A program made the translations under genes and the position numbers. The notes under the pieces were generated by a model that saw only the letters and a list, made by a program, of their open reading frames with translations, did not search any database and was not told the origin of the DNA. A stretch of 6,899 bases of DNA from an uncultured Bacilli bacterium (lineage in GTDB: Bacteria; Bacillota_I; Bacilli_A; RF39; UBA660). The stretch covers positions 1 to 6,899 of the forward strand of contig CALVUU010000117.1 of assembly GCA_944363655.1 (NCBI GenBank), in the 5' to 3' direction. The first letter of the stretch is position 1, and each line of letters opens with the position of its first letter. Below are positions 1-6,899 of this stretch, one piece after another.

Positions 1-328
1 AAACATAACACTTATCACTACTATTACTTTGCATTACTACTTTTTTTGTTTCTTTATTCCAAGATAACTTTCCGCCATTTTCACAACTAGATAATTCTTC
101 ATTAAAAATATAACCCTCCTGTGGCCACGATGTATCGCTACTAACTTCATATTCTCCACTACCCGATGATGTTTCATACATCATAGTTAATGCATTAGAA
201 TTAACCATTTGTTTACTTTCTTTAGCGTTTTCATATATTTTTTTATCTAAATTATAACTATTCATAATTAAAGCACTTACAATCAAACCAATAATTATTC
301 CACTAAATACGTATAAGATTTTTTTCAT
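1..328 (-). CDS. N-terminal part of a membrane-anchored or secreted surface protein (runs off left edge)
   Basis: An open frame of 109 codons starts at ATG 328-326 and continues past base 1, so the C-terminus is missing. An AGAGGT ribosome binding site (335-340) lies 6 bases upstream of the ATG. Residues 1-2 are followed by Lys then a hydrophobic helix (about residues 4-22, rich in Ile, Leu and Val) with no lipobox Cys, so it is a signal anchor or an uncleaved signal peptide. The exported part is Ser/Asn/Glu-rich. It contains a small module with two Cys (residues 82 and 107) around a KLSWNKETKK segment and ends in DKCYV at the edge; the Cys pair could form a disulphide. I recognise this Cys-LSW-KCYV style from hypothetical surface proteins of AT-rich uncultured Bacilli, but no function is known to me. 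It is transcribed divergently from the HTH gene at 443. A pilin-like pseudopilin is a weaker alternative. Confidence 0.8.
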   Translation of the reverse strand, partial: MKKILYVFSGIIIGLIVSALIMNSYNLDKKIYENAKESKQMVNSNALTMMYETSSGSGEYEVSSDTSWPQEGYIFNEELSSCENGGKLSWNKETKKVVMQSNSSDKCYV

Positions 329-367
329 TTTGATACCTCTTTATATTTTAAATTCTAACATCATGAC

Positions 368-406
368 AACTTGTATTCCACGGTGCAAACACCGTGGTTA
401 CAAGTT
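368..406. repeat. Long inverted repeat in the divergent intergenic region
   Basis: Left arm 368-385 reads AACTTGTA, then TT, then CCACGGTG. Right arm 390-406 is the reverse complement of AACTTGTA, then A, then CCACGGTG. The arms give two perfect 8-bp blocks (16 pairs) separated by a 2x1 internal loop, around a CAAA loop (386-389). The CCACGGTG core is markedly more GC-rich than its surroundings. It has no T-tract on either side, so it is not a standard terminator. It sits between the divergent starts at 328 (minus) and 443 (plus), 37 bases from the HTH start codon. It is therefore a candidate operator for the neighbouring HTH protein, or a structured 5' leader. I could not assign convincing promoters to either gene here. 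Confidence 0.75.
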
Positions 407-442
407 TACAATTATGAAATAATTAACTAGAGGATTTTAGAT

Positions 443-646
443 ATGTTTAAAGAATATCGCAAGAAATTAAAATTAACTCAAGAACAATTAGCAGATAAAG
501 CAGATTTAAATACCAGAACGATTCAAAGAATTGAAAATGAAGAAGAAATACCTAGTTTAGAAACTTTATCTAAATTAGTTAATGCTTTAGAAATAAAAGA
601 TAAAGATTTAATAGAATATATAAAAAAGTTTAGTAAACAAAAATAA
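443..646 (+). CDS. Small XRE-family helix-turn-helix DNA-binding regulator
   Basis: This 67-residue protein is essentially one HTH_3 (Cro/C1-type) domain. It contains the family pattern LTQEQLADKADLNTRTIQRIE: TQEQLADKA (about residues 12-20) forms helix 2 and NTRTIQRIE (24-32) the recognition helix. PSLETLSKLVNALEI (38-52) supplies helices 4 and 5. A short charged tail (to residue 67) follows, with no second effector domain. The AGAGGA ribosome binding site at 429-434 is 8 bases before the ATG. Stand-alone proteins of this kind usually bind short palindromes as dimers and often autoregulate; the target is not known here. The inverted repeat at 368-406 just upstream is the obvious candidate. 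It is followed by its own terminator and is thus separate from the small peptide locus downstream, although regulation of that locus cannot be excluded. Confidence 0.93.
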   Translation: MFKEYRKKLKLTQEQLADKADLNTRTIQRIENEEEIPSLETLSKLVNALEIKDKDLIEYIKKFSKQK

Positions 647-675
647 AGTGTTATGTTTAGCACTTTATTTTTGTT
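641..675 (+). terminator. Rho-independent terminator after the HTH gene
   Basis: A perfect 10-bp stem AAATAAAGTG (641-650) pairs with CACTTTATTT (661-670) around a 10-base loop, followed by a T-rich tail at 671-675. The left arm overlaps the TAA stop codon (644-646). The opposite strand also has a run of T after the hairpin, so it may terminate in both directions. Confidence 0.85.
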
Positions 676-705
676 TGTATGTCGAACTTTGTCGGACAAT
701 TTTTC

Positions 706-734
706 TTGCAATTGCATTTATTTCCCGTTAGAAT
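706..734 (+). promoter_or_regulatory. Sigma-70-type promoter for the small peptide transcript
   Basis: A -35 box TTGCAA (706-711) and -10 box TAGAAT (729-734) are separated by exactly 17 bases. Transcription would start near 740-741, immediately before the left arm of the 742-980 inverted repeat. The leader to the start codon at 832 would be about 90 nt. The -35 box overlaps the palindrome GCAATTGC (708-715), which recurs at 949-956. Confidence 0.7.
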
Positions 735-831
735 AAATAACCGTTACCTGCTAGTGGTAGTGCCTGCTTTAAATCTGAGTAATCTATTACTACTCAAATA
801 TTGGGGGTTTTGGATGCAAGGAGGCAAAGAT

Positions 832-909
832 ATGAACAAAGAAGAAAACATAAGTACTCTTTTAGTAATAATAATCTTATTGATTGTAGTTATACTGCAG
901 TTAGTATAG
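832..909 (+). CDS. 25-residue hydrophobic membrane peptide, candidate type I toxin
   Basis: The peptide begins MNKEENISTLL and continues as an almost unbroken run of Ile, Leu and Val ending in ILQLV, giving one transmembrane helix (about residues 9-25) behind a short charged N-terminus. The start is fixed by a strong AAGGAGG site (818-824), 7 bases before the ATG at 832-834. An in-frame ATG further upstream at 679 is not credible because it precedes the promoter boxes. Tiny single-helix peptides with strong ribosome binding sites and a convergent small RNA are typical of type I toxins such as Fst and TxpA. I do not recognise this peptide as a member of a named family, and it lacks the charged C-terminal tail usual in Fst. 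The leader is structured: GTAAT-CT-ATTAC (779-790) forms a small hairpin, and TGCCT (761-765) can pair with AGGCA (822-826), which overlaps the ribosome binding site. A signalling or regulatory membrane peptide is the main alternative. Confidence 0.72.
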   Translation: MNKEENISTLLVIIILLIVVILQLV

Positions 910-943
910 AAAAAAGACACTAGCCTTGTTCAGGTATAGTGTC
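910..943 (-). terminator. Rho-independent terminator, minus strand, just past the peptide stop codon
   Basis: GACACTA (916-922) pairs with TAGTGTC (937-943), extended by CCT (924-926) with AGG (932-934) around a 5-base loop. On the minus strand the hairpin is followed by six T residues (915-910). There is no T-tract on the plus strand, so it terminates leftward transcripts. It probably ends the small RNA that starts near 985, and may also end read-through from the DUF2207 gene, which has no other terminator. Confidence 0.8.
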
Positions 944-985
944 CGCAAGCAATTGCAGGCATTATCCACTAGGGGTAACGCTTAC
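910..985 (-). ncRNA. Predicted ~75-nt antisense-type small RNA opposing the peptide gene
   Basis: A well-placed promoter (992-1020) and a U-tailed terminator (910-943) on the minus strand delimit a short transcript from about 985 to 910. It contains no plausible reading frame. It is antisense to the region just downstream of the peptide stop codon (907-909), and its 5' end (blocks CGTTACC, CTAGTGG, TGCCTGC) nearly repeats the 5' end of the peptide mRNA. This arrangement, convergent with a short toxin mRNA, resembles RNA II of the pAD1 par (fst) system and RatA opposite txpA. Both boundaries are predictions from promoter and terminator signals only. Confidence 0.6.
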
Positions 986-991
986 ATGTAT

Positions 992-1020
992 AATATAACA
1001 AACTTTTATAGATTATGCAA
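992..1020 (-). promoter_or_regulatory. Sigma-70-type promoter for the predicted small RNA
   Basis: On the minus strand a -35 box TTGCAT (1020-1015) is followed by a 17-base spacer and a -10 box TATATT (997-992). Transcription would start near 985, just before the right arm of the inverted repeat. It mirrors the plus-strand promoter at 706-734 (TTGCAA, 17 bases, TAGAAT). Confidence 0.65.
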
Positions 1021-1028
1021 TACTTGAG

Positions 1029-2891
1029 CTAAAATCCTCCACCACTGCGGCCTCCACCACCGAAGCCACCTCCAGATGAAAATCCTCCGCCGAATCCTCC
1101 GCCACTACTCATAGATGAACTAGCATTCATTCTATTTATAGTCATTTGTGATGTATTTATCGCTTGATTCATCGATGAAGTTATTAAATTAGCTATATGA
1201 ATATTAGTTATATAATTTAAAGTAAAATAATCAACCCCTAATTCATCAACATTTATCTCACTTATCTTTACATTCATTACTTTTTCTACACGATCAGCAA
1301 GACCAAAAACCGTTGCATAAACTAAATATCTTTCCCACAAAACAATCTCAGGAAGTTCTTTAATACTAAAATTACCAAAATCATTTAAAAATCTTTTAAA
1401 AGCTTGCCATCTTGCATAATGTTCTATTCCTTTTTTAGTTTTTTTACTAAAAGCTGTTGTATAAATCATAAAAACAATTGCAAATAATATAGTAATAATT
1501 CCTGGAATAAATTCAATATTATTATGAGCAATATAAGTTATTAATAAAATTGAATAAATTAATAATATAAAAGGTATAATTATATATTTTTTCTTCTTTT
1601 CAAAAAATTCTTGGGCTTCCCCATCTTTAATAGCCTTATTCTTCCAATTAGTATAACTATTCATAAAAGTTTGACAAGTTTTAGTACTACTTGCATACTT
1701 TTTTAAATTTGTTGTTGTAAAGCTACCTGTTTTTTTACCAACTTTTTCAAATAAGAAATCTATTAAAGCATTTTCGGTATCATTTAATTTATTTCTTGTA
1801 ACTAAAGTAAATTTATATTCATCTTTAACCTCAGTTACTTTTTCTACTTTAATATTTTTCTTATAAACTAAATTCATTATAGATGCACTTAAAGCATTTT
1901 CAGTAATAGTTTTATGCATCAAGTAATCAACAACTTCAACATTATAATCATCTATAAATTCTCTATTATATTTTAAATTAAACATTGCTTTTCTTTCTTT
2001 ATCATATTTTAAATAAATATAAAGAAATGCTCCAATTAAAGAAATATAGAAAATAATTGTACCTACAATTGCTATTGTCATTTTACTTTTAATTTCTTTT
2101 CTTAAAAAATTAGCTTCGTCTGCTCTTGCAGTTTCTGTTTCAATTATTTCATCAAAAGACTCATCACTATATTTAGTTACACCTGTAACTAAATTATCAT
2201 CAAAAGTCATTCTTATATCCATTGTTCCATAAGATTCAAGCATAGGTATAGTTGCATAAATAACTGAATTAGTACTACTACTTTCTTCATATACTTCACC
2301 AGCTAGTGGACCATGTGCCCAAAAACGAAAATAATTACTATTATCAAGTTTTGGTAAAGTAACTCGTATATTTAAATTTCCTATTTCATCAGCAAGTTCT
2401 CCGCTAAAAAAATTCCAATAAAACTCTGCAAAATTATCATGCATAGTAACAATACCTTCAATAGTATAATCAAGTCTAAAAACATATTTATCTCGTTTTA
2501 TTGGATGATACATTCTAATTCTGTAACCATTAAATATTGAATCAACTGAATATTTTATATCTTCACCTGCACTAGCATAAGTAACTAATAGAAAAGGAAT
2601 GAAATTTTCATTAAATGTATCAAAAGATATTTTATTACTATCTAAACCTGATACTTTTATATTGGTAATATCATCAGCTTTCATAGAACTTTTTATACTA
2701 GAATATGCTAAATTCATTTCATAACCATTAAGTGTTCCATCAATTAAAAATAGTTCTGATACATCTACATTCCCATTTTCTAATATCTTAGCATCAATAT
2801 AATAAGATTCAATATCATAATTAACATCACTTGCCAAAGTAATAATTGGCATAATTAAAAATACTAATAAACTAAATATTAATTTTTTCAT
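1029..2891 (-). CDS. DUF2207-family predicted membrane protein
   Basis: The 620-residue protein opens with a signal peptide (MKKLIFSLLVFLIMPIITLA, likely cleaved before Ser21). An extracytoplasmic beta-rich region (about 22-260) follows, typical of the DUF2207 N-terminal domain and including VDVSELF, RLDYTIEG and AEFYWNFF. A transmembrane helix lies at about 272-294, then a cytoplasmic region, two more helices (about 437-456 and 462-481) and the family segment RWQAFKRFLNDFGNF with WERYLVYATVFGLAD (about 494-532). The last 26 residues are almost all Gly, Ser and Phe. The family is uncharacterised; genes of this type commonly lie beside lemA, as here, suggesting a shared envelope role (inference). 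I chose ATG 2891 over the in-frame GTG at 2897 because GAGAG lies 5 bases before the ATG but abuts the GTG. The site is weak, and a terminator-like hairpin lies just upstream, so expression is probably lower than that of lemA. Confidence 0.9.
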   Translation of the reverse strand: MKKLIFSLLVFLIMPIITLASDVNYDIESYYIDAKILENGNVDVSELFLIDGTLNGYEMNLAYSSIKSSMKADDITNIKVSGLDSNKISFDTFNENFIPFLLVTYASAGEDIKYSVDSIFNGYRIRMYHPIKRDKYVFRLDYTIEGIVTMHDNFAEFYWNFFSGELADEIGNLNIRVTLPKLDNSNYFRFWAHGPLAGEVYEESSSTNSVIYATIPMLESYGTMDIRMTFDDNLVTGVTKYSDESFDEIIETETARADEANFLRKEIKSKMTIAIVGTIIFYISLIGAFLYIYLKYDKERKAMFNLKYNREFIDDYNVEVVDYLMHKTITENALSASIMNLVYKKNIKVEKVTEVKDEYKFTLVTRNKLNDTENALIDFLFEKVGKKTGSFTTTNLKKYASSTKTCQTFMNSYTNWKNKAIKDGEAQEFFEKKKKYIIIPFILLIYSILLITYIAHNNIEFIPGIITILFAIVFMIYTTAFSKKTKKGIEHYARWQAFKRFLNDFGNFSIKELPEIVLWERYLVYATVFGLADRVEKVMNVKISEINVDELGVDYFTLNYITNIHIANLITSSMNQAINTSQMTINRMNASSSMSSGGGFGGGFSSGGGFGGGGRSGGGF

Positions 2892-5813: not shown

Positions 5814-5843
5814 AAAAAATAGTCATAATTAGTTATGACTATT
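5814..5843 (-). terminator. Rho-independent terminator of the surface protein gene
   Basis: An 11-bp perfect stem, AATAGTCATAA (minus strand 5843-5833) with its complement (5828-5818), encloses a 4-base loop and runs into T residues to 5814. The stem overlaps the TAA stop codon at 5844-5842. Confidence 0.88.
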
Positions 5844-6899
5844 AATTAATGCGATAGGGATCAGATTCTGTTCCGGATCCCCCGGTGAGAGTTACATTGG
5901 AGTTTAGGTAGAATGTTGGTCTGATATCTGCTTCTACTGTATAAATCTCAACCAATTCGACATAACCAAACTTAGTTATGAAGAAAGCACCAATCCAATC
6001 ATCCGAAGAACGTATAGTCCATTCTTTCCATCCCGTATATAACCAATTATTAGAACTTACATTTTCATATAAAATTGAACTTACTCCATATTTCCAATAA
6101 TTTGGACTTGTGGCATAGCCATAATCTGAAACGTACATTAAGCCCATTTTGGCACTATATGTTGTTGGCTCTGCTGGACTTACTATTTCATTTTGATAAA
6201 CTTGTTTTGAGTTTCCATTAGTTATACTATCGCTTGTATTTCCTCCGACTTGCCAGTTTGTTGTTGCTATTTTACTTGACCATGTACTTCCTAATCCATT
6301 TAAATATGTTCCATTTAATACACCTGTATTTAACGTACTTTCACTCCATGTATTACTATGATTCGAGCTTGATCCACTCCAATAATTCTCTCCTATTCTT
6401 GTGTTTTTTATTAGTTTTACTTGATTTCCAAACACGCCAATGATTCTGTACAAATTATCACTTGAGCATGTTGCTGCTGTTGAGCCAAAACAGACATAAT
6501 TATTGGGATTGGCTCCACTAAAACGGTATGAATTATCTCCTGCTTCAAGTGAACCATATGTTCCGCTTCCATCATGATAATAAATACCATCTACTCCATC
6601 TCCAACAATAGAATTAAATTTTTTTATACAACTTGCTAAATTTTCTCCGCTTGTACACACTTCAGCTAATGTTGATGGATTGTCCGTTGTTGCGCTGACA
6701 CTTTTTTGGCTTGATTGATGTCCTGCTGTATCTGTTACATATACTCTAAATGTGTATTGTGTACCTGCACTTAATCCTGTAAATGTATAACTACTACTTG
6801 TACTACTTACATAACTACTTCCATTATTACTTGAATAATAATATCTACTTATACTATTACTTCCTCCACTCGCTGTTACATTTATAGTTACACTATCAC
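5842..6899 (-). CDS. C-terminal part of a secreted or surface protein with FN3-like and Trp-rich C-terminal domains (runs off right edge)
   Basis: The frame is open from base 6897 to the TAA at 5844-5842 (351 residues); the N-terminus lies beyond the window. The GTG at 6660 is an internal Val codon, not a start, because coding continues upstream. The first ~72 residues look like a fibronectin type III domain: DSVTINVTAS, a Ser/Tyr-rich stretch, then GLSAGTQYTFRVYVTDTAG. A linker leads to a Cys-containing segment (VCTSGENLASCIKKF), then YYHDGSGTYG, NPNNYVCFGS and NLYRIIGVFGNQVKLIK. The C-terminal part has GLMYVSDYGYA, GWKEWTIRSSD and DIRPTFYLNS, ending GSGTESDPYRIN. The GW-EWT, GYV and IRP-F-L spacing recalls DUF6273 or formylglycine-generating-enzyme/C-type-lectin-like folds, which I infer from motif style only. 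No sortase motif is seen at the C-terminus. Repeated FN3-like tracts suggest a cell-envelope adhesin or extracellular protein. The last ~50 bases of coding sequence are distinctly GC-richer than the rest. Confidence 0.82.
   Translation of the reverse strand, partial: DSVTINVTASGGSNSISRYYYSSNNGSSYVSSTSSSYTFTGLSAGTQYTFRVYVTDTAGHQSSQKSVSATTDNPSTLAEVCTSGENLASCIKKFNSIVGDGVDGIYYHDGSGTYGSLEAGDNSYRFSGANPNNYVCFGSTAATCSSDNLYRIIGVFGNQVKLIKNTRIGENYWSGSSSNHSNTWSESTLNTGVLNGTYLNGLGSTWSSKIATTNWQVGGNTSDSITNGNSKQVYQNEIVSPAEPTTYSAKMGLMYVSDYGYATSPNYWKYGVSSILYENVSSNNWLYTGWKEWTIRSSDDWIGAFFITKFGYVELVEIYTVEADIRPTFYLNSNVTLTGGSGTESDPYRIN

Follow-up and report, generated by a model that had tools for sequence, protein, structure and literature searches.

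What does the block at 680–1020 of this DNA encode, and could it be a type I toxin–antitoxin module? Type I systems easily escape detection: their peptides fall below the length that gene callers handle, and their RNAs are too short for searches. A sequence-only reading of the window (the whole 6,899-nt stretch analyzed here, from an uncultured Bacilli bacterium) had proposed a plus-strand promoter, a Shine–Dalgarno sequence (SD) and a 25-codon peptide, facing a minus-strand promoter and a U-tailed hairpin. These parts proved real: their coordinates were confirmed, and they recur in homologues. We also found features absent from that reading, namely Spo0A boxes, an SD-hiding leader, and a leader-like 5′ part of the antisense RNA. 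The parts of the window locus are listed below.

680–696, plus strand: predicted tandem Spo0A (0A) boxes, TGTCGAA (680–686) and TGTCGGA (690–696), in a 10-bp register
706–734, plus strand: promoter of the peptide mRNA, TTGCAA (706–711), 17 bp, TAGAAT (729–734), with a probable start near 741
741–770, plus strand: mRNA leader, a 5′ hairpin GUUACC...GGUAGUG and then an anti-SD segment, GCCUGCUUU, at 762–770
803–811, plus strand: G-rich block GGGGGUUUU, between the leader and the SD
818–824, plus strand: SD, AAGGAGG, whose predicted pairing partner is the leader
832–909, plus strand: candidate toxin, the hydrophobic 25-aa peptide MNKEENISTLLVIIILLIVVILQLV (ATG at 832, stop at 909, 25 codons)
910–985, minus strand: candidate antitoxin, an antisense RNA of ~75 nt whose 5′ half repeats the mRNA leader in the same sense
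910–944, minus strand: U-tailed terminator hairpin of the antisense RNA, with its stem from 944 and its U-run at 915–910, reaching the peptide stop
992–1020, minus strand: promoter of the antisense RNA, TTGCAT (1020–1015), 17 bp, TATATT (997–992)

Evidence from the single window was weak. Promoter-like matches in window 1–2000 were at chance level (13 versus 12.8 in shuffles), the minus promoter was absent from the output of that scan, and the scan found no terminator under its settings (0 versus 0.4 in shuffles). By folding, the minus-strand RNA was more stable than its shuffles (z = −2.7), and the plus leader (741–850) was no more stable than its own (z = −0.2). It is the homologues that confirm the module, as judged by what recurs among them. 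Elsewhere in the window, a partial protein with a hydrophobic N-terminus (2–328) and a partial repetitive surface-like protein (5842–6897, scanned over 5842–6660) matched no Pfam family above cut-off.

A homology search by the peptide alone was abandoned, the queries being too short. A search by the neighboring DUF2207 gene yielded five relatives, all metagenome-assembled genomes. Blastn with window 700–1025 in these relatives gave seven long matches in three genomes (79–87% identity), six of them near full length, and many partial ones besides, some in tandem; next to DUF2207 itself, in loci L001–L003, there was no such block within contig reach. Window 680–1020 is one copy of a dispersed, at times tandem, module; in the genus, blastn (E ≤ 0.001) found it whole or partial in 22 of 30 genomes, some of them with short matches only. 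Profile searches of the collected loci returned 100 element pairs. After removal of 18 weak or reverse-strand matches, 82 elements were retained, with 11 tandem pairs; except where a copy is truncated or decayed, they show both promoters, the frame and the hairpins. Seven could not be parsed and one more with an odd frame was excluded, leaving 74 modules. L012, L237, L242, and L243 appear decayed (a broken frame, a missing box, or the antisense-RNA end alone); intact copies exist elsewhere.

The modules share a common layout. On the plus strand, one or more 0A-like boxes precede a promoter (TTGnnn-17-TAnAAT), a leader starting near CGUUACC, a G-rich block (GGGG or longer in 69/74 modules), the SD, and the peptide. 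On the minus strand, a promoter (TTGnnn-17-TATATT-like) leads into a GUGUUACC hairpin, which a short linker joins to a second, U-tailed hairpin reaching the peptide stop. We built a covariance model from the minus-strand RNA plus its −10. At the family level, it matched 8 of 145 genomes (E ≤ 0.01), including other genera, one match (G142) being a false positive on inspection. At the order level, it matched 47 of 385 sampled genomes (E ≤ 0.001), a count of model scores that were not individually inspected, and it gave up to at least 12 matches in a single genome (12 candidates scored). The host lineage resembles the uncultured Bacilli orders described in the available text of PMC10868615. Phage and plasmid records gave only short matches, with E ≥ 0.3 among the matches listed (20/118 records; 17/17 records), and two exact-pattern scans of viral contigs returned zero matches each, which at that stringency gives no hint that viruses carry the module. 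Rfam gave nothing above its gathering score and a single weak match (E = 7). Present across the genus and in further genera of the order, the family had no match above the cut-offs of Rfam, Pfam, NCBIfam, or PHROGs in these searches.

The peptides of the 74 parsed modules are 22–29 residues long and of several kinds, e.g., MNKEENISTLLVIIILLIVVILQLV, MKKDNILLVIIILLIVVILRLI, MNDNEFYLVMIIIILSLIADIKEKRR, and MSNNIFYQLVIILLFGIIYQNIEKRHRK. The ratio pN/pS was below 1 in all 12 peptide groups (range 0–0.68, with few differences behind some values), and divergence by codon position was 0.33, 0.12, and 0.43 among 25 distinct A-type sequences, position 2 being the slowest. By these measures purifying selection acts on the peptide frame, which upholds the frame first proposed, and the hydrophobic composition suggests a membrane location. 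The impression that the peptide belongs to no named family was borne out as well: seven peptides matched nothing above the family cut-offs of NCBIfam and Pfam, and the best PHROGs match had an E of 0.15, in libraries that, like Rfam, are insensitive to hydrophobic peptides of 25 residues.

We then examined the minus-strand RNA. Of 72 RNAs delimited, 41 were non-redundant and no longer than 82 nt; 36 of these were aligned and 5 omitted for length or divergence. The conserved structure has 15 pairs in two hairpins, with 93.9% of the cells paired across the 36 sequences. Six pairs changed on both sides, giving 29 double-changed cells where shuffles average 10.0. None of 500 shuffles equaled the RNA in its pairing or double-change score, and slid structures scored far worse. 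Further pair types, one of five measures, were not above shuffles in the 36 sequences. Compensatory changes across copies were seen in the terminator hairpin (910–944, minus strand). The small RNA of the sequence-only reading is, by this analysis, structured and covarying, and the model built on it recurs in the 47 order genomes above. A minus-strand terminator-like site is present in 53/71 modules. On the plus strand, such a site lies within 230 nt in only 7/71 modules. If transcription of the mRNA extends through it, the RNA is complementary by position to the mRNA 3′ region. Two features expected of a type I system, a short hydrophobic membrane-type peptide under selection and an opposite-strand non-coding RNA with its own promoter and terminator, are present here at the level of sequence. 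The 5′ half of the RNA copies the leader in the same sense, i.e., the shared element is inverted in the DNA. Because the RNA starts as a leader copy, the leader also matches the 3′ region of its own mRNA.

Dispersed and tandem copies with inverted, leader-like ends could also be produced by a miniature element, mobile or repetitive, with ends that just resemble promoters. We consider this the least probable account of the family: its conserved ends are two promoters with 17-bp spacing, constraint is visible in the evolution of its peptide frame and RNA stems, and both exact-pattern scans of viral contigs came back empty.

The core motif of the 0A box is TGTCGAA (PMC3485338, available text). 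A box within one mismatch was found upstream of the peptide promoter in all 57 non-redundant modules with enough upstream sequence (dinucleotide shuffles average 7.2), an exact box in 47 (shuffles, 0.5), and tandem boxes 10–11 bp apart in 36 (shuffles, 0.05). Since these modules were gathered with a profile spanning the box, the test was repeated on loci outside the genus that had been found with the RNA model only. Here, a box within one mismatch was present at 24 of 27 loci, 15 of them exact, versus 2/27 on the control side; a peptide-like ORF (loose rule) was present at 26, and both together at 23. These loci, from five genomes and with near-identical paralogues retained, derive from 31 of 43 places (12 in G002 and G050 were left out), of which four were set aside: three cut short at the end of a contig, and L246, a false positive. 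Among the three loci lacking a box, L237 looks decayed, L243 is without an upstream module, and L234 is divergent. In 17/71 modules of the first set, the 60 nt upstream of the antisense promoter also contain a box on either strand with at most one mismatch, and some of these boxes may belong to the following tandem module.

Spo0A itself is widespread in the hosts. In the genus, Spo0A_C was detected in 25/30 genomes and SpoIVA_ATPase in 27/30; Spo0A_C was not found in the other 5, nor in 4 of the 47 module-bearing genomes of the order sample, in assemblies of unstated completeness. Across the order sample Spo0A is near-universal (366/385 genomes), so its presence yields no association and was rejected as a correlate of the modules. 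The DNA-binding half of one Spo0A protein aligns with PDB 1fc3/1lq1 and keeps SRVERAIRHAIE. Two features expected of a Spo0A regulon are found, i.e., a 0A box at the promoter and a Spo0A with a conserved DNA-binding helix (in the one protein compared). Genome G099 has 12 exact TTTTGTCGAA sites, three of them in modules, against 8 for the reversed control; the motif is not clearly enriched there, and the idea of the box as a rare genomic mark was dropped as unsupported. One site, reversed in orientation, is ~110 nt upstream of the probable spo0A start; it overlaps the end of the gene before it, and another TTCGACA falls between the site and that start. A different site precedes a STAS-domain gene with a sigma-70 gene immediately after it, a pair that recalls spoIIAA-sigF, but without spoIIAB in between. 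Also in G099, near 404966 (L252), a module-like box and promoter have no peptide seen downstream and are possibly a remnant. At known Spo0A promoters, a box upstream of the −35 suggests activation. The box position in the modules, likewise upstream of the −35, suggests that Spo0A would control the peptide mRNA, more likely by activation.

The boxes, together with the sporulation genes of the host genomes, also suit a peptide that is not a toxin at all: a small membrane effector of sporulation, made upon Spo0A activation and silenced by the RNA during growth, for which small single-helix sporulation peptides such as SpoVM set a precedent. We think this unlikely. Dissimilar peptide kinds within one genome (G001, G002) and tandem arrays are more toxin-like, and sites that are present or absent between relatives, along with decayed copies, are unlike a housekeeping sporulation factor. 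Our preferred reading, to whose core we give a probability of roughly 70%, is that the modules form a dispersed, type I toxin–antitoxin-like family under Spo0A in uncultured Bacilli that bear sporulation genes. This core, which leaves aside the switch described below, draws on the conservation, structure, boxes, and complementarity seen across the sequences. It agrees with the type I-like interpretation of the sequence-only reading, whose predictions that can be tested on sequence are supported, with the peptide as a putative toxin and the RNA as its putative neutralizer.

How the RNA might control the peptide was explored by folding. In 42 non-redundant modules, the mean unpaired fraction of the SD was 0.19, versus 0.37 with shuffled leaders; the SD was less open than with shuffled leaders in 36/42 (p = 1e-7), and its main partner was leader nucleotides 14–45. 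The leader is thus predicted to hide the SD. In the extended mRNA, pairing between the leader and the antisense region was above shuffles in 42 of 43 non-redundant modules. The SD was then more open than with the 3′ region blocked in 32/43 (means, 0.33 versus 0.20; p = 2.6e-5) and, compared with a shuffled 3′ region, it was more open in 27/43 (p = 0.003). The gain was at least 0.2 in 13/43 modules (12/21 A-type, 1/22 others), a loss of at least 0.1 occurred in 4/43, and the SD was at least half open in 9/43. For example, SD openness in the window is 0.52 in the extended mRNA and 0.17 with the 3′ region blocked, and in 3 of 5 T-type modules the SD was fully hidden in both states. The predicted switch is supported mainly in A-type modules, the window's included.

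Among 13 types, complementarity of the leader with its own 3′ region exceeds that with the 3′ regions of other types, the cognate ranking first in 10/13 with a permutation p at its floor (5e-5); the types share ancestry, and this matching could come from gene conversion between module ends. The RNA did not pair directly with the SD any better in cognate than in non-cognate combinations (p = 0.098), and such pairing was rejected as a specificity determinant; because of this lack of preference, we favor action of the RNA via the 3′ region rather than by SD blocking. Leader–SD pairing, strong inside modules, likewise had no cognate preference across types (p = 0.095).

In the preferred type I-like reading, the boxes just upstream of the −35 would place the peptide mRNA under Spo0A, and the mRNA leader would conceal its own SD. 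The convergent RNA, made from its own promoter and ending at the peptide stop, would be fully complementary to the 3′ region of a read-through mRNA, and pairing there would silence or degrade that mRNA. A Spo0A-driven burst of mRNA would then outrun the RNA and release the membrane-acting peptide. We infer transcription, Spo0A binding and its sign, RNA–RNA control, and toxicity of the module as parts of this scheme. Its least certain step is that the leader pairs with either the SD or its own 3′ region, two possible partners that arise because the 5′ half of the RNA copies the leader; in part, the RNA would act by taking up the 3′ region, so that the leader stays available to conceal the SD. 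The fullest version, Spo0A-triggered cassettes in up to about a dozen copies per ~1-Mb genome with a leader-mimic antitoxin that frees the leader for the SD, is a tentative proposal that we hold to be possible and rather doubtful, and we lowered its odds slightly since SD opening is small outside the A-type. If the family is what it seems, type I-like modules are tied to the master regulator of sporulation. If the leader-mimic idea is also true, type I systems have a new control logic and commitment to sporulation is directly linked to intracellular toxins. The dozens of paralogues are a natural test set for RNA control.

Several known systems resemble the module by description. txpA/RatA of the B. 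subtilis skin element is likewise convergent, with a small peptide and an antisense RNA that overlaps the mRNA 3′ end by ~75 nt; however, its peptide has 59 aa (22–29 here), and the available text of PMC4147584 mentions neither a Spo0A box nor a leader-mimic, both of which are predicted in the present modules. Fst/par of pAD1 (RNA I/RNA II) shares convergent promoters, a small peptide, and intramolecular SD hiding, and is further described by direct repeats DRa/DRb, a bidirectional terminator, and a peptide PXXXG motif (PMC7472228, available text). In the module, the shared element is inverted in the DNA and has the same sense in both RNAs, whereas the par repeats are direct. Direct repeats at the initiation site were not found (RNA–SD cognate p = 0.098), a bidirectional intrinsic terminator was absent from the window (plus-strand terminator-like sites in 7/71 modules, as above), and PXXXG(C) occurred in 0/74 parsed peptides; by these features the module fails Fst/par membership. 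aapA/IsoA of Helicobacter, from a different host, also has several chromosomal copies and long-distance 5′–3′ pairing in the toxin mRNA (PMC6733600, available text). That pairing hides the SD, whereas the pairing predicted in the present modules would compete with SD hiding; in folding, SD openness went up in 32/43 modules and down by at least 0.1 in 4, contrary to the aapA/IsoA type. The type I modules of C. difficile (CD2517.1-RCd8 and relatives) are convergent, several per genome, and have regulated promoters, and their long complementary region is read as suggesting degradation (PMC6563280, available text). Their toxins are of 34–53 aa under SigB control, compared with 22–29 aa and putative Spo0A control here. 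No type I module under Spo0A was found in the literature consulted, PMC6563280, as available, naming Spo0A only in its reference list.

The setting beside lemA and an HTH gene, put forward in the sequence-only reading, is that of one locus; the module is a multi-copy family whose neighbors are not constant. In 32 loci (eight largest clusters listed, flanks mostly 1–1.5 kb), the largest neighbor cluster not reading through the module covers 4 loci, and only the window and L098 have DUF2207 as the gene next to the module; the HTH or lemA block was rejected as a partner for this lack of constancy. The survey bears on one more alternative. The cannibalism toxins of B. subtilis are Spo0A-controlled, and a Spo0A box before a hydrophobic peptide of 22–29 residues would also fit a secreted antimicrobial or signaling peptide whose leakage the RNA limits. 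We judge this very improbable, as no constant neighbor among the 32 loci means that no co-travelling transporter or immunity gene was seen there.

L098 (G105) has a module at the window's own site, with 80% identity over 1326 columns. L105 (G107:C2), compared with window 442–1030, has the HTH and DUF2207 neighbors and the module ends in common with it, and differs in its interior, with another peptide, SD region, and terminator. Module interiors may thus be exchanged within fixed ends at an orthologous site. In L039 (G002:C5), an apparent broken transposase was seen by eye between modules. L007 (1482–2520; G001:C17) contains three head-to-tail modules with three different peptides and very similar ends.
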